Part shown: positions 12,626-63,899 of the stretch, in pieces | How positions within the stretch are numbered: the first letter of the stretch is position 1 | Layout: each line of letters begins with the position of its first letter | Source: Catellatospora sichuanensis | GTDB taxonomy: Bacteria; Actinomycetota; Actinomycetes; Mycobacteriales; Micromonosporaceae | Reading direction: 5' to 3' | DNA: 64,000 nt | NCBI RefSeq assembly: GCF_007483665.1 | Contig: NZ_VIQO01000010.1 | Span: 62,001 to 126,000 of the forward strand | Notes under the pieces: generated by a model | Databases searched by the model: none | What the model was told of the DNA's origin: nothing | What the model saw: only the letters and a program-made list of their open reading frames with translations | Translations under genes and position numbers: made by a program

Positions 12626-12697
12626 TCGGCTGTGGTGTAATTGGCAACACTCGCGCCTTTGGAGCGCGCTTTCCAGGTTCGAGCCCTGGCAGCCGAG
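12626..12697 (+). tRNA. tRNA-Gln (anticodon TTG)
   Basis: A full cloverleaf can be drawn: acceptor arms TCGGCTG and CAGCCGA, anticodon stem CGCGC/GCGCG with loop CTTTGGA giving anticodon TTG (reads CAA), T-arm CCAGG/CCTGG with loop TTCGAGC, and discriminator G73, as expected for Gln. CCA is not encoded. It lies directly upstream of glmU, as in other actinobacteria. Confidence 0.95.
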
Positions 12698-54836: not shown

Positions 54837-57800
54837 GTGAGCAAGCGGCCAGGAACGCAGAACAACGCGGTCCTTTCGCGTCTCCGACGGCCAGTGAGCC
54901 GGCTCCGGGACATGCCGATCTGGTCCAAGCTGGGCCTGATCATGATCGTTCCGACTCTGGCCACGATCGTCGTTGGCACCAACGGTCTGTTGGACAACCT
55001 CGACACAGCGACCGGCGCCGACCGCACGCGGATTCTCTCCGTGCTGGTGAAGGAGTCAGGCGCACTCGTCGACGACCTCCAGAACGAGCGTGCCGCAGCG
55101 GTCATGCTGCTCGGCACGCCCAACACCCCGCCGGCGTCCTACGAGAACGCCGGCAAGCTGGTCGAGGAAGCCAAGAAGCCGTACGCGCAGCAGCGCGGCG
55201 CGCTGGTGGACGTCGACGACAGCCTCCGGGACCTGCTCGTGCAGATCGACTCGGGCCTTTCCAGCCTGCCCTCCGTGCGGGAGCAGGTGAAGGACCGCAA
55301 GATCAAGCAGTCTGACGCGGCGATGCGCTACCAGGTGATCATCGATTACCTGCTGCAGATCCGTGACAGCGCCGCCCAGATCGCCGGTGGCGGCGACCTC
55401 GGTGACGGCCTGCGCGCGGCGAGTGCGATCGCCACATACAAGGAGTTCCTCTCCCAGGAACGTGTCATCGTGCACCGGGCATACATGCTCGGTGGCCTGA
55501 ACACGGGTCTGCGCAAGGACTTCATCGCCACGCTGACCGGCCAGGAGCAGGCGCGCGACGCCTTCGAATCGGTCGCCGGCGACGCGGACATGGACCTGTT
55601 CAACAGCCAGGTGACCGGCCCGACGCTGCGCAAGTCGTCGAAGTTCCAGGCCGACATCGAGGCGCTGCTGGGCGAGTCGCTCAGCTCGCTGAACTTCTCC
55701 GCGGCCGAGTGGGACCAGAGCATGCGCGACCACGGCGGCGTGCTCCGCAAGGTCGAGATCCAGCTGGACTCCGACGTCGAGGTCACCGCGAGCGACCTGC
55801 GTGACGAGGTCACGCAGCAGGTTCTCGTGCAGACCGGTCTGCTGCTGGGCATGCTGCTGCTGGCGATCCTCTTCGCCTGGCTGGTGGCCCGCTCGATGGC
55901 CCGGTCGCTGCGCGAACTGCGTCACGGCGCGCTCAGCATCGCCCAGTACGGTCTGCCGCAGGCGGTCGCCCGACTGCGCGACCCGGCGCTGTCCTCACAG
56001 CTGTCGCCGGTGCAGGTGGCCAACCAGATCGCCGAGCCGCTGCCGGTGCGCAGCAAGGACGAGTTCGGGCAGGTGACCGAGGCGTTCAACGCGGTCCACC
56101 TGGAGGCGGTCCGCACCGCCGCCGAGCAGGCCGCACTGCGGTCGTCCGTCGCGACGATGTTCGTCAACCTCGCCCGTCGTTCGCAGATCCTGGTCGACCG
56201 GCTCATCGGTCACCTGGACCGCCTCGAGCGCGGTGAGGAGGACCCGGACCGGCTGGCCGAGCTCTTCCAGCTGGACCACCTGGCCACCCGAATGCGCCGG
56301 AACGACGAGAACCTTCTGGTGCTCGCCGGTGCCGACTCCACCCGTGTGCAGCGCGAGCCCGCGGCCCTGCTGGACGTGCTCCGTGCCGCCCAGTCCGAGG
56401 TCGAGCACTACACCCGGATCGAGTTCGGGGTCATCGACCGTGACATCGAGGTCGCCGCGCACGCGGTCAACGACCTGGTGCACCTCATCGCCGAGCTCTT
56501 CGACAACGCGACCGCGTTCTCCCCGCCGGACTCGACCGTCATGGTCGAGGCACGCCGGGTGGGCGACCGCGCCGTGCTGTACGTCGAGGACCACGGCATC
56601 GGCATCTCGCCGGACATGCTCAACGAGATCAACGAGAAGCTGGCCAGTCCGCCGCAGGTGGACGTGGCGGTCTCCCGGATGATGGGCCTGGTCGTGGTCG
56701 CGCGGCTCGCCGCGCGGCACGGGGTCAAGACGGAGCTGCGGCTCTCGGCCGACCGGGGCATCATCGCCGACGTCACGCTGCCGACCGCGGTGCTCGTGCC
56801 GCGGGCGCTGGCGGGTCGCGGCGCGGGCGCTCCGTCGCGGGAACTGCCCGGGTTCGCCCCGGCCCCCAACATGCGCCAGCAGGCTCCGGCGGCCCCGCCG
56901 CAGCGCTCGTCCTCCTTCGCGCCGCTGGCGCTGGAGTCGGGCTCTGGGGCGAGTGCACCGGCCGGGGCAGGCCGTGGATTCAACGGCGGCAGCGGCGGGC
57001 GGCTCTTCGACGCGCCACCCGCTCCGCCCGCACCGGAACTGCCCGTCAGCGCGCCGCCCTCGCGGGCCGGCATGCCGGCGTGGTCGGACCTGACCGGCGT
57101 CAACGGCTCCGACGCGTCGCGCTCCGGCGCCGGCTTCGGCGAGGCGTTGCCGCAGCGCCGGGTGGAACGCCCGGTGGACACGGACCGGCCGGAGTCGTTC
57201 GGTGGGCCGCAGATCCCGCGGCAGCCGTCGTCGCCGCAGGAGGAGCGGGCGAACCCGTCCTGGAACCAGCAGAGCTGGGCCGGGCCGGTGGCACCCACTT
57301 CGTCGCCGCAGGCGCCGAGCAGCCCGTACACGAACCCCGGTATGCCGATCTCGGCCGTCCCGGTCTCCGCGGTGCCCGTCTCGGCCGCGCCCGTCTCGGC
57401 AGCCCCGATCGACGTTCCCGCGTCCGCCGTGCCGCCGACCTGGCCGCCGGTGAGCCGCGAGGACAACCCGTCGGTGACGCCGGACATGACGGCCGAGATG
57501 CCGCGCATTCCGGACGAGTACCCGGTCGTGGACACGCGTATCCCGTTCGCCGACGAGACCATGGAGCTGCCGATCTTCCGGGAGCTCGAGTCGGCCTGGT
57601 TCAGCACACGGCGTACGGCAGTCGATGCGCCAGCTCAGGACGAGAAAACTGCCCCTCCCGCGAACGTCCCCCCAGACACTACGATCACCGCACAGTTCCC
57701 CGCCGTTGAACGTAACGGGCACGGGAGCAACGGTGCACCGAAGGTCAGCAGCACAGCGGCGGGAGCTTCCGACCTGCCGAGCAGGGACGTGAGCATGGGG

Positions 57801-58157
57801 AGTACGCAGTCTGGCCGAGAGGCCGCCGGCTACGAAGTTCCGGCGCCCTACCGGCCGAGCTGGCAGACGGCCGCCGACGACGGATGGGCGGCCGCCACGG
57901 CGATCGCCAACAACACGACACCCTCGGAATCGACGGCCGCGGGGCTGCCCAAGCGCACCCCGATGGCACAGCTGGTTCCCGGCGGTGTGGAGAAGGGCGC
58001 TACCACCGTGCAGCGCCGCACGCCGGAGGGCGTCCGCGGACTGCTCTCCGCCTACCACCGCGGGGTGCAGCGCGGCCGCACTCAGCACAAGGACGATGAT
58101 GTGATTCCGGGCTCCACCGAGACCGGAAGCCAGTCTGGCAAGGAGCAGGAGGCATGA
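54837..58157 (+). CDS. Nitrate/nitrite-sensor type histidine kinase of a conservon (CvnA-like)
   Basis: A 1106-residue membrane kinase. TM1 at about 32-52, an extracytoplasmic NIT-like helical domain (about 55-325), TM2 at 331-352, a HAMP-like linker, a helical segment with [11 protein letters not shown], and an HATPase domain with the N-box E-L-F-D-N-A-T-A-F at 553-561 and D-H-G-I-G at 585-589. Residues 650-1106 are a Pro/Ala-rich tail with P-V-S-A repeats. Its end carries S-A-W-F-S (919), D-D-G-W (1014), T-A-A-G-L-P (1033), L-V-P-G (1046) and H-R-G-V-Q-R-G (1074), all matched in the 898-residue protein at 61203-63899. The GTG at 54837 follows AGGAGGG. It overlaps the Roadblock gene (ATGA). 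Confidence 0.93.
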
Positions 58158-58558
58158 CCACTACGCAGGATCTTGGTTGGCTGTTGGCCAACTTCGCCGA
58201 CCGGGTGCCGGGCGTCGCCCATGCGGTCGCGGTGTCCGCGGACGGCCTTTTGCTCGCGTCTTCCCGGGACCTTCCCCGGGACCGGGCCGACCAGCTGGCC
58301 GCCATCTCATCCGGTCTGGTGAGCCTCACACAAGGTGCCGCCCGCTGTTTCGAGGGTGGCGCGGTGTTGCAGACTGTCGTGGAGATGGACAACGGGTTCC
58401 TTTTCCTGATGTCCATCTCCGATGGCTCCTCGTTCGCGGTGCTCGCTTCGCGAAGCTGTGACGTGGGCCAGGTCGGGTACGAGATGGCGCTCCTCGTGGA
58501 CCGGGTGGGCGACGCGCTCACCCCGGCCCCGCGTAGCGCCGCAGGCGTGCTGGGCTGA
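58154..58558 (+). CDS. Roadblock/LC7 domain protein (CvnB-like)
   Basis: A 134-residue Roadblock/LC7 protein, the second member of the conservon. The family pattern is [22 protein letters not shown] (broken here only for reading) and [12 protein letters not shown]. Such proteins bind small GTPases and act as their regulators. Its ATG overlaps the kinase stop. Confidence 0.95.
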
Positions 58559-58616
58559 GGCAAAACCGTCCCGGAGGGTCCGGGGACGGCACTGGGGAAG
58601 GGGGTGAACGGCGACG

Positions 58617-58994
58617 ATGCCCGACAGAGAAGAACCGACCGGTGCATTGGTACGGCCGTACGCCGTGACCCGTGGCCGCACCCGGCCGCGATTGGAGATC
58701 GCGATCGAGGCGCTGGTGGAGACGACCGTACGTGGTCGCTCCGCTGGCACCTCCGGTCGCGGCGGCCACGGGAAGGAACATCAACACATCGCGTCCCTCT
58801 GCGACGGCAAGGTGCAGTCGCTTGCGGAGATCGCGGCACGGATGCGGCTGCCGCTCGGTGTCGCCCGTGTCCTCATCGCGGACATGGCGGCAGACGGCCT
58901 GGTCGCGGTATACGAGCCGACGTCGTTTGAGAGTAACGACGCGGTAGGCACTGAACTGCTGGAGAGGGTACTCAGTGGACTTCGGAGGCTCTGA
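58617..58994 (+). CDS. DUF742 protein (CvnC-like)
   Basis: A 125-residue DUF742 protein with the usual L-V-R-P-Y-A-V-T-R-G-R-T near 11, and a winged-helix-like C-terminal half (S-L-A-E-I-A-A-R-M-R-L-P-L-G-V-A-R-V-L). In conservons it sits between the Roadblock and GTPase genes, as here. About 25 residues (R-S-A-G-T-S-G-R-G-G-H-G-K) form a polar insert. Its last 20 bases overlap the GTPase gene. Confidence 0.93.
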   Translation: MPDREEPTGALVRPYAVTRGRTRPRLEIAIEALVETTVRGRSAGTSGRGGHGKEHQHIASLCDGKVQSLAEIAARMRLPLGVARVLIADMAADGLVAVYEPTSFESNDAVGTELLERVLSGLRRL

Positions 58995-59592
58995 CATGTC
59001 ACACCGCCCGGCGCAACAGCCTGGCGGTCGTGTGACATCGGCGAAGATTGTCATCGCCGGCGGCTTCGGCGTCGGTAAGACGACGCTCGTTGGGTCCGTT
59101 TCGGAGATCACGCCGCTGACCACTGAAGCGATTATGACTTCGGCCGGTGTCGGCGTGGATGACACGCGCTCGGTCCCCAACAAGACCACCACCACGGTGG
59201 CCATGGACTTCGGCCGTATCTCCATCGATCGCGACCTGATCCTGTACCTGTTCGGCACGCCTGGCCAGACGCGTTTCTGGTTCATGTGGGACGAGCTGGT
59301 GCGGGGCGCGATCGGCGCGGTGGTCATGGTGGACACACGCAGGTTGGCAGACTGCTTCGCGGCGATCGACTTCTTCGAACACCGCAAGCTGCCCTACCTG
59401 ATCGCGATCAACCAGTTCGACGGGCAGCAGTACCACAACGCCCAGGACGTACGGGACGCGCTGGCGATCTCGTCGGACGTGCCGGTGGTCAGCTGCGACG
59501 CGCGTAACCGCGAGTCGACCAAGCAGGTGCTGATCTCCCTGGTGGAGTACGTGCTCTCGATGCGGCGTACCCGCACCGGAGCCTCGGCCTGA
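58975..59592 (+). CDS. Conservon GTP-binding protein (CvnD-like)
   Basis: A 205-residue Ras/Arf-like GTPase. P-loop G-G-F-G-V-G-K-T-T near 29-37, switch region with T-T-T-T-V-A-M-D-F-G, and G3-like F-G-T-P-G-Q-T-R-F. The GTG at 58975 begins M-D-F-G-G, the normal start of this family, and has GAGAGGG 6 bases upstream inside the DUF742 gene. It ends the conservon operon; a bidirectional terminator follows. In Streptomyces this GTPase interacts with the Roadblock protein. Confidence 0.95.
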   Translation: MDFGGSDMSHRPAQQPGGRVTSAKIVIAGGFGVGKTTLVGSVSEITPLTTEAIMTSAGVGVDDTRSVPNKTTTTVAMDFGRISIDRDLILYLFGTPGQTRFWFMWDELVRGAIGAVVMVDTRRLADCFAAIDFFEHRKLPYLIAINQFDGQQYHNAQDVRDALAISSDVPVVSCDARNRESTKQVLISLVEYVLSMRRTRTGASA

Positions 59593-59702
59593 CATAGCAA
59601 GCACGCACAGGCCCGCCGTCCCCAAGACAGCGGGCCTGAAGTGCTGTCCCCCGGGACCAGCCGACCGCCCGCCCACGCCCCCCCTTCCCCCAACTATAAA
59701 AC

Positions 59703-59737
59703 ACTCGCCCCCTCAAACACTGTTTGAGGGCGCGAGT
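59703..59737. terminator. Bidirectional terminator between the conservon and the binding-protein gene
   Basis: A 17-base stem (59703-59719 with 59721-59737, one mismatch) centred on AAACACTGTTT, followed by CTTTAAG on the plus strand and preceded by TATAAAA, which gives a T-run on the minus strand. It separates two convergent genes. Confidence 0.85.
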
Positions 59738-59787
59738 CTTTAAGACAGGAGGCAGGCCGGGCCCAGGAGCCCGGCGGGCCGGGGAGG

Positions 59788-60990
59788 TCAGCTGAGGCGG
59801 ACCCAGGCGCCCTGGCGGACGATGAAGGGGGTGAGGGCGTCGGCTTCGATGCCGCCGTGGGAGATGGGCTGGAAGGCGTACGCCCCGCTGATGCCCTCGA
59901 TCGGACCGCCCTCGAGCCGTCCCCGCAGGCGCTGCGGGTCGGTGCTGACGGCCCGCCGTGCGGCGGTGGCCATCAGCGTCAGCGCGTCCGCGCCGTACGG
60001 GGCGAAGCCGGTGAACGAGCCGTACTGCTGGATGTAGCGGTAGATGAAGGTGCGCTGGGCGCGTCCGGAGGGCGTGGTGGCCACCGTGGGGGCCCCGGCG
60101 AGCACGGCGGGGTGCACGACGTAGGCACCCTCCATCGCGCGGCTGTTGGGGCCGTTGAGGGTCTCGTCCGCACCGGCGCCCGCGTCGAGGAACACCTTGC
60201 CGGCGTAGTCGGCGTTGCGCAGCGCGGCGACCGCGGCGGCGCTCACCGGGGCCTGCGCCCAGATGATGACCGCGTCCGGCTCGGCGTCGGCGACCCGTGC
60301 GGCCGCGCTGCCGTAGGCCCGGCCGGACTTGGGCAGGCGCACGGTGTCGACGATCTCGCGCCCGCTGGCGAGCATGGCCCGGGGCAGTGCGCGCACTCCC
60401 GCGTCGCCGTGCCCGTCCGCGGTCGCCAGGATGGCCACCTTCTTCAGGCCGAGCTTGCGGATCTCGCGGCCCATGATCGCTGCTACGTCCGAGGCGTTCG
60501 GGCCGAGCTGGTAGACGAACTTCCGGTTGGGCAGCGGCACGGTCATGTCGTCACCGCTGTTGAGGCAGAGGAACGGGACCTTGCCCGGCTCGGCCACCGA
60601 GATGATCGCGCGGGCCGTCTCGACGGTCGCGCCGCCGATGATCGCGCTGACCTTGTCCTGTTCGATGAGGTCCTTGGCCTGCTGCATCGCGGTCGCCGCG
60701 TTGCCGCCGTTGTCCTTGAAGATCAGCCGGAGGTAGAGGCGGCCCTCGCCGTACGGGATGCCGACCGAGTTGATCTCGTCCGCGCCGACTCTCAGCGCCT
60801 GCTCCTGCAGCTTGCCGAAGGTCGAACCGGGGCCGGTGAGCTCCAGGTTGATGCCGAGCACGAGTTCCCCGGTGGCGCCCGCGGCGCTTGCGTCGGGCTC
60901 GGCGCAGGCGGCCAGCAGCGCTGCGGCGGCCAATCCGAGTCCGCCGGTGAGGGCGCTGCGTCGGGTCAGTCCACCTGTGGCGCTGTTCAT
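59788..60990 (-). CDS. Tat-exported substrate-binding lipoprotein, branched-chain amino acid/urea ABC type
   Basis: A 400-residue periplasmic-binding-fold protein of the type 1 (LivJ-like) group. The N-terminus has a twin-arginine motif (L-T-R-R-S-A-L-T-G-G) and a lipobox L-L-A-A-C near 27-31, so it is a Tat lipoprotein. Family text: L-G-I-N-L-E-L-T-G-P, L-I-E-Q-D-K-V-S-A-I-I-G-G and F-V-Y-Q-L-G-P. ATG 60990 has GGAAAGG 6 bases upstream. No permease or ATPase gene is adjacent, so it is an orphan binding protein; a sensory role is possible. About 110 bases of its leader hold only short inverted repeats (CTCAGG/CCTGAG at 61085-61104). Confidence 0.9.
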   Translation of the reverse strand: MNSATGGLTRRSALTGGLGLAAAALLAACAEPDASAAGATGELVLGINLELTGPGSTFGKLQEQALRVGADEINSVGIPYGEGRLYLRLIFKDNGGNAATAMQQAKDLIEQDKVSAIIGGATVETARAIISVAEPGKVPFLCLNSGDDMTVPLPNRKFVYQLGPNASDVAAIMGREIRKLGLKKVAILATADGHGDAGVRALPRAMLASGREIVDTVRLPKSGRAYGSAAARVADAEPDAVIIWAQAPVSAAAVAALRNADYAGKVFLDAGAGADETLNGPNSRAMEGAYVVHPAVLAGAPTVATTPSGRAQRTFIYRYIQQYGSFTGFAPYGADALTLMATAARRAVSTDPQRLRGRLEGGPIEGISGAYAFQPISHGGIEADALTPFIVRQGAWVRLS

Positions 60991-61202
60991 GAACGTGCCT
61001 TTCCGCGGTGCAAGGGGTGCATGGGCGGTGGCGCGAGCCACTGCCGCACACGTATCGTGCTGGCCCGCCGGAGCGGGGGTCAAGCTCAGGGACTATGGCC
61101 TGAGACACACGGTCATGCTCGTGCGCCTCGCTCGGTGCCATCCTCCGTTTCGCTGGGGACGGCACCGCGCGACCGCTGTCGCAGGCGACGCGAAGCCGCA
61201 GC

Positions 61203-63899
61203 TCAGCGGTAGTTGGCCGCCCGGTAGTTGTAGTCGTCCCGGTCGTCGCGCGCGTCCTGCTCGCGGCTGAAGTCCCAGCCGTTGGCCGACTCCCGGCCCG
61301 GACGGCCGCCGACGGCGAAGCCGCCCTGGCCGGGGCCGCCGCCGAGTTCCTGGTTGCCGCGGCGCCAGCCACGGAAGTAGTTGCTGGTGTGCGCGGCGAT
61401 GCCGGCGGCGTCGCGGACTATGCGCAGCGGGCGCTCCTCGCGCTCCGGCGTCGAGCCGGGCACCAGGTTGGCCGCCGGCACGCGACGGGGCAGGCCCGCG
61501 GTGGTGTCGTTGCCGACCTGCGGACGGGCCGCCTGCTCGGCGGCGCGCCAGCCGCTGTCCATGGTCGAGTTCCAGGTGGTCTCGGCGCTGGTTTCCGGAC
61601 CGCTGAACCAGGCCGAGGAGACCGACGCGAAGATCAGCAGGTCGTCGTCCTCGCCGGAGGCCGGGCTGGACGCCCGCTCGCTGCGGCGCGGCTTGGGCCG
61701 CGCGCCGGTCAGCGCGCTGTCGTCGACCAGGCGCAGTGGGGGCTCTTCGCGCCCGCCGCGGCCGTTGCGTCGGGCCGACTCGTCGACCAGCCGCAGCGAC
61801 GGGGACTCGGGCAGCACCAGGTCGTCGTCGAGCCACGGCGGGGTGATCCGCCCGTCGGCGGGGCGCGCGGGCTCCTCCGGCTCCGGGTTGAGCGGCCAGT
61901 TGGCGCGCGAACCGGCGGGGGCCGCGGGCTGCTGCGGTGCCATGCCCAGCGGGTCGGCCGGCATCCGGGTGATGTCGATCGGCACGTCGGTCGCGGACGG
62001 CGCGTTGAAGCGCGGGCGCTCCCCGGTGTCGCGGAGGCTGTCCTGCTGGAAGCCGCTGCGGGCACGCTCGGCGAGTTCGTTGGCCAGCCGCTCGGCGGCC
62101 GACGGCTGGTAGCCGCGCTGGGCGCGGTCGTCCAGGTCGCCCGCCCGGTCCACGGCGGGCTGCTGGTAACCGCCGCGGGGGCCGCGGTCGTTCGCGGGCT
62201 CGACAGGCTGCTGGTAACCGCCGCGGTGGCCGCGGTCGTTCATGGGCTCGGCGGGCTGCTGGTAACCACCACGCGGGGCGCGGTCGTTCGCGGGCTCGGC
62301 GGGCTGCTGGTAACCGCCGCGGGGGGCGCGGTCGGCCCGGTCGCTCGGCAGGTCGGCAGCGAGCTGCTGGTATCCGCGCGGCGCGTCGTCCACGGGCTCG
62401 GCGGGCTGCTGGTAGCCGCGCGGCGCCTGCTCGGCGAGGTCGGCGGCGGGCTGCTGGTAGCCGAGATGTCCCTGCTCGACGGTCTCGTCGGGCAGGTCCG
62501 CGGACGGGGCCTGGTTGAACCCGCGCGCTGCGCGCTCGCCGCTGATGACGGCGTTGGTCAGGGTCGGCACGAACGGCTTGCCCGCGTCGGCCGGCGGCCG
62601 CGAGGTGCGCTGCGCCGGGATGGGGGCCTGCCGCGGCGGGATCGGGGTGGGCATCTGCCGGGTGGGCGCGGCAGGGGCCTCCTGGCGCGCCGCCACGGGC
62701 ATGGCGACCATCGGGGTACCCGCGATCGGGGTCGGCTCGAAACCGGGCGGCACGGGCGGCGTGGAGGGCGCCCACGCGGGGCGGTCCACCGGCGGCGGCG
62801 CGAGCGGCGTGCTCGACACCGGCTCGGGCGCGGTCGGCGGGGCCTGCACCGGGCGCGGCTGCGCCGGGGCGGCGTTCACGGCGGTCGGCTGCACGCGGCG
62901 GCGGGCGCCGGTCGCGGCGGCCATCGCGGGCGGTGCCGAGGTGACCGGGACACCGGTCCGCCGAGCGGCGGGCTGGGCGGGCGCGGCGACCGGCGGCGGG
63001 GCCATCCGGTCGGCGAGCGTGTCGATGAGGGCGGCGCCGGCGGCGTCGGAGGAGCGCACGGCGGCCACGCTGTGGCGCACGGAGTCGGCCACGGCGGCGG
63101 TCAGCTGCTTGCCGATGCCGTTGCGGCGGGGGGTCTCCGCGATGGCGACGCGCAGCGCGGTGACCGCCTCCAGGGCGGTGCCGCTGTCGCAGACGCCGTC
63201 GGCGACGAGCCGGGCGGCGACGGTCTCGGCGGTCGCGCCGTTGTCACGGTTGCGGGAGCCGGACTGCCCGGCGAGCATGCCCGGCTCGGGCAGCGCCTCG
63301 AGCACGGCCAGGGCGACCGGGGCGGCGGGGTCGGGGTAGGCGCGCAGCGCGGCGGGATACAGCTCGCGCAGCACTTCGCGCAGGGCCACCGCGGCGGCGT
63401 GCCGGCCGACGGCCAGCGCCGCGTGCGCGGCCAGCACCGGCTTGAAGGCGACGAACTCGCGGGGCGCGGGACCGACCACTGCGGACAGCGCACCGGCCTG
63501 CAGCGCGCGGGCGAGCCCGACGGCACGGCGTTCGTCGGGGGAGGAGTTGGCCTCGTCGAGAGACTCGTCGTCGGCGAACCGGTCGGCGAAGTCGTCGGCG
63601 GACTCGTCATCGGTGTACGCGATCGCCCGGCCTGCCGCGGCGAGCAGCGAGATGACCTGCTGGTCGTCGCTGTCCGCGGCCACCGTGACCATCGTCGAGC
63701 CGCCGAACCTCTCCGCCAGCAGCGACGTCACCAGCGCGTAGCCGGCAGGATCGTCGTTGATGACGCAGAACTCCAGCAGCCTGCCGGAGTCGTCGACAAC
63801 GGCGACGGTCAGCCGGTTCACGGCCGCCGCAAGGTTGTCCCCCGCGTCGACCTCCGGAGCTGTCGACGCGATACCGCAGTACACCCGCACGAGCGCCAC
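61203..63899 (-). CDS. 898-aa protein: IS110-transposase-like N-terminus, repeat region, conservon-kinase-like C-terminus
   Basis: Residues 4-110 follow the pattern of the N-terminal RuvC-like (DEDD) domain of IS110 transposases (V-Y-C-G-I-A ... V-A-V-V-D-D-S-G ... N-D-D-P-A-G-Y ... A-G-R-A-I-A-Y ... D-F-A), but the first catalytic Asp of G-I-D is Ala here, so nuclease activity is unlikely. Residues 120-300 are helical (A-V-G-L-A-R-A-L-Q-A-G, V-A-L-R-E-V-L-R-E-L-Y). Residues 310-700 are Pro-rich with seven G-Y-Q-Q repeats. The end (762-848) carries S-A-W-F-S, D-S-G-W, T-T-A-G-L-P, L-V-P-G and R-G-W-R-R-G, matching the tail of the sensor kinase at 54837-58157. The GTG at 63899 has GGAGGAGG upstream. 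Function unknown. Confidence 0.85.
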   Translation of the reverse strand: MALVRVYCGIASTAPEVDAGDNLAAAVNRLTVAVVDDSGRLLEFCVINDDPAGYALVTSLLAERFGGSTMVTVAADSDDQQVISLLAAAGRAIAYTDDESADDFADRFADDESLDEANSSPDERRAVGLARALQAGALSAVVGPAPREFVAFKPVLAAHAALAVGRHAAAVALREVLRELYPAALRAYPDPAAPVALAVLEALPEPGMLAGQSGSRNRDNGATAETVAARLVADGVCDSGTALEAVTALRVAIAETPRRNGIGKQLTAAVADSVRHSVAAVRSSDAAGAALIDTLADRMAPPPVAAPAQPAARRTGVPVTSAPPAMAAATGARRRVQPTAVNAAPAQPRPVQAPPTAPEPVSSTPLAPPPVDRPAWAPSTPPVPPGFEPTPIAGTPMVAMPVAARQEAPAAPTRQMPTPIPPRQAPIPAQRTSRPPADAGKPFVPTLTNAVISGERAARGFNQAPSADLPDETVEQGHLGYQQPAADLAEQAPRGYQQPAEPVDDAPRGYQQLAADLPSDRADRAPRGGYQQPAEPANDRAPRGGYQQPAEPMNDRGHRGGYQQPVEPANDRGPRGGYQQPAVDRAGDLDDRAQRGYQPSAAERLANELAERARSGFQQDSLRDTGERPRFNAPSATDVPIDITRMPADPLGMAPQQPAAPAGSRANWPLNPEPEEPARPADGRITPPWLDDDLVLPESPSLRLVDESARRNGRGGREEPPLRLVDDSALTGARPKPRRSERASSPASGEDDDLLIFASVSSAWFSGPETSAETTWNSTMDSGWRAAEQAARPQVGNDTTAGLPRRVPAANLVPGSTPEREERPLRIVRDAAGIAAHTSNYFRGWRRGNQELGGGPGQGGFAVGGRPGRESANGWDFSREQDARDDRDDYNYRAANYR
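62160..62459 (-). repeat. In-frame tandem repeats coding for G-Y-Q-Q-P units
   Basis: CTGCTGGTA (Tyr-Gln-Gln on the minus strand) occurs at 62160, 62208, 62256, 62304, 62364, 62406 and 62451. The first four are spaced exactly 48 bases (16 codons), the others 60, 42 and 45. Units read R-G-G-Y-Q-Q-P-A-E-P-A-N-D-R-x-P. A degenerate eighth unit lies near 62110. Copy number may vary between strains. Confidence 0.9.

Follow-up and report, generated by a model that had tools for sequence, protein, structure and literature searches.

A dead IS110-type transposase with the tail of a sensor kinase as a probable component of conservon signalling in Micromonosporaceae

Introduction

Why would a large protein encoded next to a bacterial G-protein operon end in the same sequence as the sensor kinase of that operon? 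The question is raised by a locus of Catellatospora sichuanensis, located in a stretch of 64,000 nucleotides (contig NZ_VIQO01000010.1, positions 62,001 to 126,000 of the forward strand) that was analysed as a whole and is called the window here. It contains a complete conservon core at 54837-59592, recognised by Pfam matches in the order kinase, Roadblock protein, DUF742 protein and GTPase. Convergent with this operon, and separated from it by a gene of the periplasmic-binding-protein type, lies the gene for a protein of 898 amino acids (aa). The initial annotation of the window had seen in the 898-aa protein a possible unnamed member of the conservon system, on the strength of its location and its tail, and had suggested the Roadblock/GTPase pair as the candidate partner. 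This membership is supported by profile alignment, by a survey of tail carriers and by the co-occurrence of the genes. Three points had been overlooked: the dead IS110 N-terminus of the protein, the wide occurrence of the tail in conservon kinases and a dedicated Roadblock gene in older lineages. The 898-aa protein is probably an unrecognised part of the conservon signalling system, because a long-fixed dead transposase beside the operon carries the tail of the sensor kinase. Our favoured reading, to which we assign a probability of about 0.55, is a domesticated, dead IS110-family transposase that became a fixed conservon component and a Micromonosporaceae-specific adaptor, with its tail docking on a Roadblock protein.

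How conservon G-protein systems relay their signal is described as poorly understood (PMC13343842), and the components named so far are CvnA-F and MfpA (PMC13343842, PMC8510531, PMC13015309); papers are cited throughout from extracts of their text. The protein studied here would give conservon signalling one more concrete component throughout a family of antibiotic producers. Its tail is defined well enough to be open to mutation, and may physically connect kinase and Roadblock protein well beyond Micromonosporaceae. A conserved kinase tail is at odds with a statement in the extracts of a preprint, according to which the longer C-terminal part of the kinases shows no notable conservation in Actinobacteria (PMC13015309).

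The shared tail

According to the initial annotation, the kinase and the 898-aa protein end in the same ordered motifs. Four ordered blocks do recur in both proteins (residues 907-922, 1007-1022, 1032-1050 and 1060-1081 of the kinase), the two genes lie where they had been placed, and block 1 extends further to the left than had been given (LLIF...SAWF versus LPIF...SAWF). For both alignments the tails were excised by a regular expression around the block GLPxRxPxxxLVPG. Since the cut was centred on it, block 3 is favoured in the profiles, while blocks 2 and 4 were unselected; the profiles comprise blocks 2-4, and block 1 was recognised by eye and with a short pattern. The profile of 22 large-protein tails aligned with that of 20 kinase tails at an hhalign E-value of 4e-22 (75 columns, 36% identity). 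When 21 genomes were searched with a kinase-only profile, the matches in the genome of the window were, in order, the kinase at 6e-40, the 898-aa protein at 4e-15 and four others at 0.03-0.1. On the 898-aa protein this profile scored 54 bits, compared with 14 bits for the best of 2000 shuffled C-terminal stretches.

At the 81 Micromonosporaceae loci of the 898-aa family, 8141 six-frame open reading frames (ORFs) were compared with each tail profile. At E <= 1e-3 either profile matched 76 ORFs from the large-protein family as well as 61 kinases and 6 others. Judged from their position, the latter are read as pieces of the same genes, split by contig ends or frame breaks. Motif counts gave a tail in 76/81 large proteins and 61/63 kinases; the five and two misses are due to contig-end cuts or a broken frame, and in L065 and L075 the tail is found in another ORF. 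A chance similarity of proline-rich tails is rejected by the shuffles and the six-frame control, and on these alignments the homology of the shared tail is real.

Outside this setting, the large-protein tail profile matched in 67 of 150 genomes of the order at E <= 0.01, and the kinase tail profile in 53 of 148 genomes of the class at E <= 1e-4. From the match lists we hand-picked 40 carriers that do not belong to the large-protein family. They comprise 23 proteins of Micromonosporaceae and 17 of other families in the order, and every one is a HATPase-type kinase. A Roadblock gene adjoins 38 of them and a GTPase gene lies near 24 (one of these a weak match, 6e-5). At 14 of the 40 loci (L233, L234, L297-L305, L308-L310) a Roadblock gene is present with neither a GTPase nor a DUF742 gene nearby; these pairs of tail kinase and Roadblock are a reduced form of the conservon. 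The 29 best-scoring further loci of the class search gave the same picture, with a Roadblock gene beside the tail carrier in every case. The kinase region was visible within a short stretch in 19 of them, and the other 10 carriers are long ORFs directly before the Roadblock gene. Block 1, of the SAWF type, was found in the long ORF at 13/29 of these loci and is thus less constant than blocks 2-4. A wide occurrence in unrelated proline-rich proteins, which had been named as a possible objection to the shared module, was not seen among the carriers read, as the 40 are kinases and the 29 are kinase-like or linked to Roadblock genes. Because the hand-picked carriers are kinases, most of them beside a Roadblock gene, and the class loci are alike, the tail is a widespread mark of conservon kinases. 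Among the carriers read, which are a minority of the matches, the sole exception to the kinase type is, by its sequence, the 898-aa family.

Two further observations concern the kinase loci themselves. The conservon kinases L217 and L221 contain tandem double tail modules, and in the conservons L218 and L220 no DUF742 gene was detected beside the Roadblock and GTPase genes. A search of viral contigs gave no confirmed match.

IS110 ancestry of the N-terminus

At E <= 1, Pfam matches of the 898-aa protein were limited to a weak match to PF01548 and one to an acetyltransferase at 0.24. The PF01548 match spans nearly the whole profile (E 0.053, or 0.0064 for residues 1-300) and lies under the curated cut-off. 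The family as a whole gave a clearer signal. PF01548 was found at E <= 1 in 11 of 20 members, with a best value of 1.2e-10, and a profile of the family N-domain aligned with six IS110 transposases over 216 columns (hhalign E 3.5e-19). Across 198 genomes of the phylum the family profile had matches in 14 besides its own genome, with IS110 transposases down to E 3e-26; the matches that were read are IS110-like, some of them broken. A motif resembling LREFYPAAL is common to actinobacterial IS110 relatives and the 898-aa family. From these profile matches, residues 1-300 are judged to descend from an IS110 transposase, with the RuvC-like DEDD domain and the helices that follow it.

In IS621 the RuvC domain (residues 1-122) is followed by a coiled coil (123-188), which dimerises, and by the Tnp domain (189-326), and D11, E60, D102, D105 and S241 are named as key residues in the extracts of PMC11208158. 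The DEDD residues have been lost in the family. Among 78 aligned members D1 is kept in none, E2 in 3, D3 in 8 and D4 in 3, compared with 10, 9, 12 and 12 among 12 IS110-like sequences aligned alongside, some of which are incomplete. The complete set is broken in all 78 members, and the surroundings of the former active site are acidic. The serine Tnp domain PF02371 gave no Pfam match at E <= 1 in the 898-aa protein, and was present in one IS110 control at E 1.4e-13. An active IS110 transposase is therefore rejected. In a tree of the N-domain (rows under 400 aa and L118 omitted) the family is split from IS110 at 100/100, on a very long branch. An AlphaFold model of the domain has a strand and helix order that fits the IS621 plan, to which we give little weight at a mean predicted local distance difference test (pLDDT) of 44.

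A true IS110 transposase was encountered in one Micromonosporaceae genome (L342, G063:C133). The sequence at its start, IFCGIDWAERHHDVAVVDQAG, appears similar to the beginning of the domesticated protein, and by this resemblance L342 is a candidate for the kind of ancestor from which the latter arose.

Distribution and linkage to the conservon

The gene of the 898-aa family is present in 80 of 81 Micromonosporaceae genomes. In a search of 298 genomes of the order, 181 of which are non-matching genomes outside the matches listed, all 54 Micromonosporaceae genomes listed reached E 9.1e-74 or better, and the best match from another family 2.5e-27. Most of the listed ORFs from other families have 120-480 aa, like IS110 transposases and their fragments, and three are longer (533, 576 and 853 aa). 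The one of these three that was read, L154, is an IS110 remnant running into a proline-rich frame. The same neighbours surround the gene in most genomes, so mobility in the manner of IS110 is not seen, and on this gene order it is fixed, not mobile, in Micromonosporaceae.

Co-occurrence with the conservon, on which the earlier proposal depended, is nearly complete. The conservon GTPase gene is located downstream and convergent at 66/81 loci, namely at 63/72 with at least 6 kb of room and at 3/9 with less. Eight genomes lack this adjacency; in all eight a tail carrier flanked by Roadblock, DUF742 and GTPase genes was found elsewhere. The kinase region is visible in seven of them and is cut off by a contig end in G022, and in G023 the tail conservon lies about 15 kb from the dead transposase gene.

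Additional copies were observed in a few genomes. L121 (G080:C22) is a second, intact-looking member with a tail but with no adjacent conservon or Roadblock gene. L343 (G082:C127) is rearranged, its N-terminal part being fused to other sequence and its tail lying in another frame. Among the second matches read, second domesticated copies were confined to these two genomes, weaker matches (E 1e-10 and above) being unread; the second match of G063 is the IS110 transposase L342.

A second Roadblock gene in the older branches

At 18 loci the dead transposase gene is directly followed, in the same orientation, by a Roadblock gene, mostly with an overlap or a distance of a few bases (119 bases in L123; ORF starts were set mechanically). 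In a tree in which the CvnB rows were thinned to every fifth, with 13 kept, these second Roadblocks group in a single clade with 100/100 support, to which neither CvnB nor the Roadblocks of the kinase pairs belong, although the bootstrap had not settled. A recent descent from CvnB or from kinase-Roadblock pairs is rejected on account of this separate clade. The tree, while compatible with an origin of the transposase-derived gene by IS110 insertion into a kinase-Roadblock pair, gives it no support.

In the N-domain tree 17 of the 18 loci with a second Roadblock gene branch outside a clade of 60 rows (98/96). This clade consists of 59 rows without the gene, some of them too short to show it, and of L114, which has it and whose placement inside the clade is not settled by the tree. 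Because 17 of 18 carriers branch outside, ancestral presence and later loss of the second Roadblock is the simplest history; a single loss would follow only if L114 branches first in the clade. Relocation of the gene within the genome is rejected, as it was absent in 9/9 genomes tested and present in 3/3 controls. The closest remaining Roadblock in the nine genomes is the CvnB of the conservon itself (E 1.5e-31 to 3e-30), whereas the true gene in the three controls gave E 1e-60 to 1e-68.

The transposase-derived protein also differs between the two groups. Its median length is 832 aa without the second Roadblock gene (56 rows) and 600 aa with it (18 rows). A W[DE]F block within the last 60 residues is present in 56/56 of the former and in 1/18 of the latter, the one being L114, which has both. 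This comparison leaves out L065, L082, L098, L113, L115 and L118, which are cut by a contig end or have a broken frame, as well as the second paralogue L121.

Proposed role

The kinase and the dead transposase have only the tail in common, and Roadblock genes recur next to carriers of both kinds. Two precedents exist in extracts of the literature. In RomR of the Myxococcus polarity system a folded N-terminal domain is followed by a long, disordered, proline-rich region and a C-terminal helix that binds the Roadblock protein MglC, with a key tryptophan (PMC12719032), and the sequence of the 898-aa protein has a similar layout. CvnA9 interacts with CvnB9 and CvnC9 in two-hybrid experiments, as cited in PMC8510531. 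Because Roadblock genes recur beside both kinds of carrier, and in view of these precedents, we infer an adaptor role for the 898-aa protein, with the tail docking on a Roadblock protein. Residues 1-300 retain the RuvC-like domain and the helical region by which true IS110 recombinases dimerise, and would form a platform, probably a dimer, from which the long proline-rich linker presents the four-block tail. The tail would dock on a Roadblock protein, ancestrally on its own one encoded directly downstream, and in Catellatospora on the CvnB of the adjacent conservon. The adaptor may then compete with the membrane kinase for the Roadblock/GTPase switch, or bridge to that kinase.

Several results weigh against this proposal. 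The interaction of tail and Roadblock is putative and comes from sequence and locus evidence, and with a mean pLDDT of 44 for the N-domain and 46 for the tail, the AlphaFold models are too poor to back a fold or binding. The conservon is not adjacent at 9 of the 72 loci with room, one of them being the paralogue L121, and G047 contains a tail kinase with no dead transposase detected. In the control G055 CvnB (4e-31) is narrowly surpassed by another Roadblock (7e-32) in its similarity to the second one. The tail kinases L293 and L294 (genus g13) have no Roadblock gene within the 16 kb read, and L286 of the same genus has none within about 1.5 kb on each side. The genome of the window has 8 Roadblock matches at E <= 1e-10 but one kinase with a strong tail, so not every Roadblock pairs with a tail. 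The co-occurrence of tail and Roadblock genes in kinases may also merely reflect conservon membership.

Among the alternatives, the one that survives best would make the 898-aa protein an effector: its dead IS110 core would still bind nucleic acid and the tail would bring it under the G protein, as a nucleic-acid output arm like MfpA. IS110 recombinases are RNA-guided DNA-binding proteins according to extracts of PMC11208158 and are related to Nop-domain RNA binders according to those of PMC12045711, and a lineage-specific fifth conservon component has a precedent in MfpA, described as present only in Mycobacteriaceae (PMC13015309). However, the Tnp domain, which recognises the bridge RNA in IS621, was undetected in the 898-aa protein, the former active site has acidic surroundings, and no Rfam match lies near the gene at gathering thresholds, no search aimed at a novel RNA having been made. 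We regard this role as unlikely. Its fuller form is, if anything, a shade more doubtful: a lineage of IS110 bridge recombinases would have turned into a signalling part whose dead core recognises DNA or RNA, and tail and Roadblock dimer would put a nucleic-acid-bound platform under a Ras-like G protein. If true, the membrane kinase would reach the nucleoid in a single output step, an arrangement that only Micromonosporaceae would have.

It is quite unlikely that the tail is a targeting signal for membrane, septum or pole, read by a factor outside the conservon, so that the two proteins merely co-localise. The tail is short, basic at its end and partly helical in a low-confidence AlphaFold model (helix at residues 826-852), and some kinases carry it in tandem copies (L217, L221), but it tracks Roadblock genes, including the dedicated one beside the non-kinase carrier. 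Improbable, too, is a tail that binds another tail, the catalytic part of the kinase, the GTPase or the DUF742 protein instead of Roadblock. Its presence on both a kinase and a dead transposase and the adjacency of the conservon GTPase at 66/81 loci would suit such partners, yet at 14 of 40 tail-kinase loci Roadblock occurs with neither GTPase nor DUF742 gene nearby. It is very improbable that the tail merely came over from the kinase gene through local recombination and has no joint function: the genes are neighbours, but throughout the family each tail type has kept a signature of its own (one PQANLVPGS/GYFRGW), and both are hence old and separately constrained.

Comparison with known systems

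The adaptor proposed here resembles several known systems in part. With IS110 transposases or recombinases (PF01548 and PF02371, as in IS621) the 898-aa protein shares the RuvC-like DEDD domain and the helices that follow. Unlike them, it has lost the DEDD residues, its serine Tnp domain is undetected, its locus is fixed, and it has gained a proline-rich linker and a conservon tail. The window operon has the gene order of other conservons (CvnA-D, such as Cvn8 and Cvn9 of S. coelicolor), but the locus has an extra, convergent component. We know of no other IS110 transposase that became a signalling protein, as far as the matches listed for open-licence PubMed Central papers go. MfpA, which acts on gyrase, belongs to the mfp conservon of mycobacteria. 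It too is a fifth component confined to one lineage, and its fold has a relation to nucleic acid; the extracts of PMC13015309 describe it as a pentapeptide-repeat DNA mimic. By that description and by Pfam the 898-aa protein, which joins a dead IS110 core to a tail of the kinase type, is set apart from it, and no pentapeptide-repeat match was found in it at E <= 1. CvnE and CvnF accompany kinases lacking a NIT domain, according to PMC13343842. The window kinase has one (PF08376, E 1.2e-34), so that the distinction from CvnE and CvnF follows this criterion and not sequence. RomR has a receiver domain, which is absent among the Pfam matches of the 898-aa protein. Taken together, the protein probably works like a signalling adaptor; by function it is no IS110 transposase, and by the NIT criterion no CvnE or CvnF.

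The word transposase does not occur in PMC13343842 and PMC8510531. Among the matches listed in open-licence PubMed Central, none joined IS110 or transposase with conservon, with domestication or with Roadblock and small GTPase, and those listed for Micromonosporaceae with Roadblock contained nothing to the point.

Features and neighbouring genes of the window

Features of the conservon and of the 898-aa gene, with positions in the window.
Feature	Position	Strand	Basis
898-aa protein: dead IS110-type transposase core, proline-rich linker, conservon-kinase tail	61203..63899	-	ORF and translation
Residues 1-300: RuvC-like DEDD domain and following helices, IS110 ancestry, catalytic residues lost	63000..63899	-	PF01548, hhalign, DEDD alignment
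Residues 306-750: Pro/Ala-rich linker, 80 Pro and 73 Ala in 445	61650..62984	-	
Tail block 1, DDDLLIFASVSSAWF, residues 751-765	61605..61649	-	
Tail block 2, TTWNSTMDSGWRAAEQA, residues 774-790	61530..61580	-	
Tail block 3, TTAGLPRRVPAANLVPGS, residues 799-816	61452..61505	-	
Tail block 4, RDAAGIAAHTSNYFRGWRRG, residues 829-848, predicted helix (low confidence)	61356..61415	-	
C-terminal extension, VGGRPGRESANGWDFSR, in lineages without second Roadblock gene	61263..61313	-	W[DE]F in last 60 residues
Conservon sensor kinase, CvnA type, 1106 aa: NIT, HAMP, HATPase, Pro-rich linker, tail	54837..58157	+	ORF and Pfam
Kinase tail blocks 1-4 (57555-57602, 57855-57902, 57930-57986, 58014-58079)	57555..58079	+	
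Roadblock/LC7 protein, CvnB type, proposed tail partner	58154..58558	+	PF03259, E 1.9e-22
DUF742 protein, CvnC type	58617..58994	+	PF05331, E 1.9e-30
Small GTPase, CvnD type	58975..59592	+	PF03029, E 2.8e-33
Periplasmic-binding-protein-type gene between conservon and 898-aa gene, optional neighbour	59788..61083	-	PF13458, E 9.3e-41

The binding-protein gene is rejected as a constant part of the system, since it is present at 24/81 loci. Homologues were also seen close to other tail kinases (L232, L234, L296, L302 and L311), and its product may supply a ligand to the NIT domain of the kinase. The upstream neighbour of the 898-aa gene on the same strand lies beyond the window edge (L235 260-1093, minus strand; G000:C6:125959-126792) and is conserved at 77/81 loci. 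It has a distant match, far under the cut-off, to the SecA2 export chaperone SatS (NF050072, E 1.6e-7). The sole Rfam match within the window is a tRNA gene at 12626-12697 on the plus strand.

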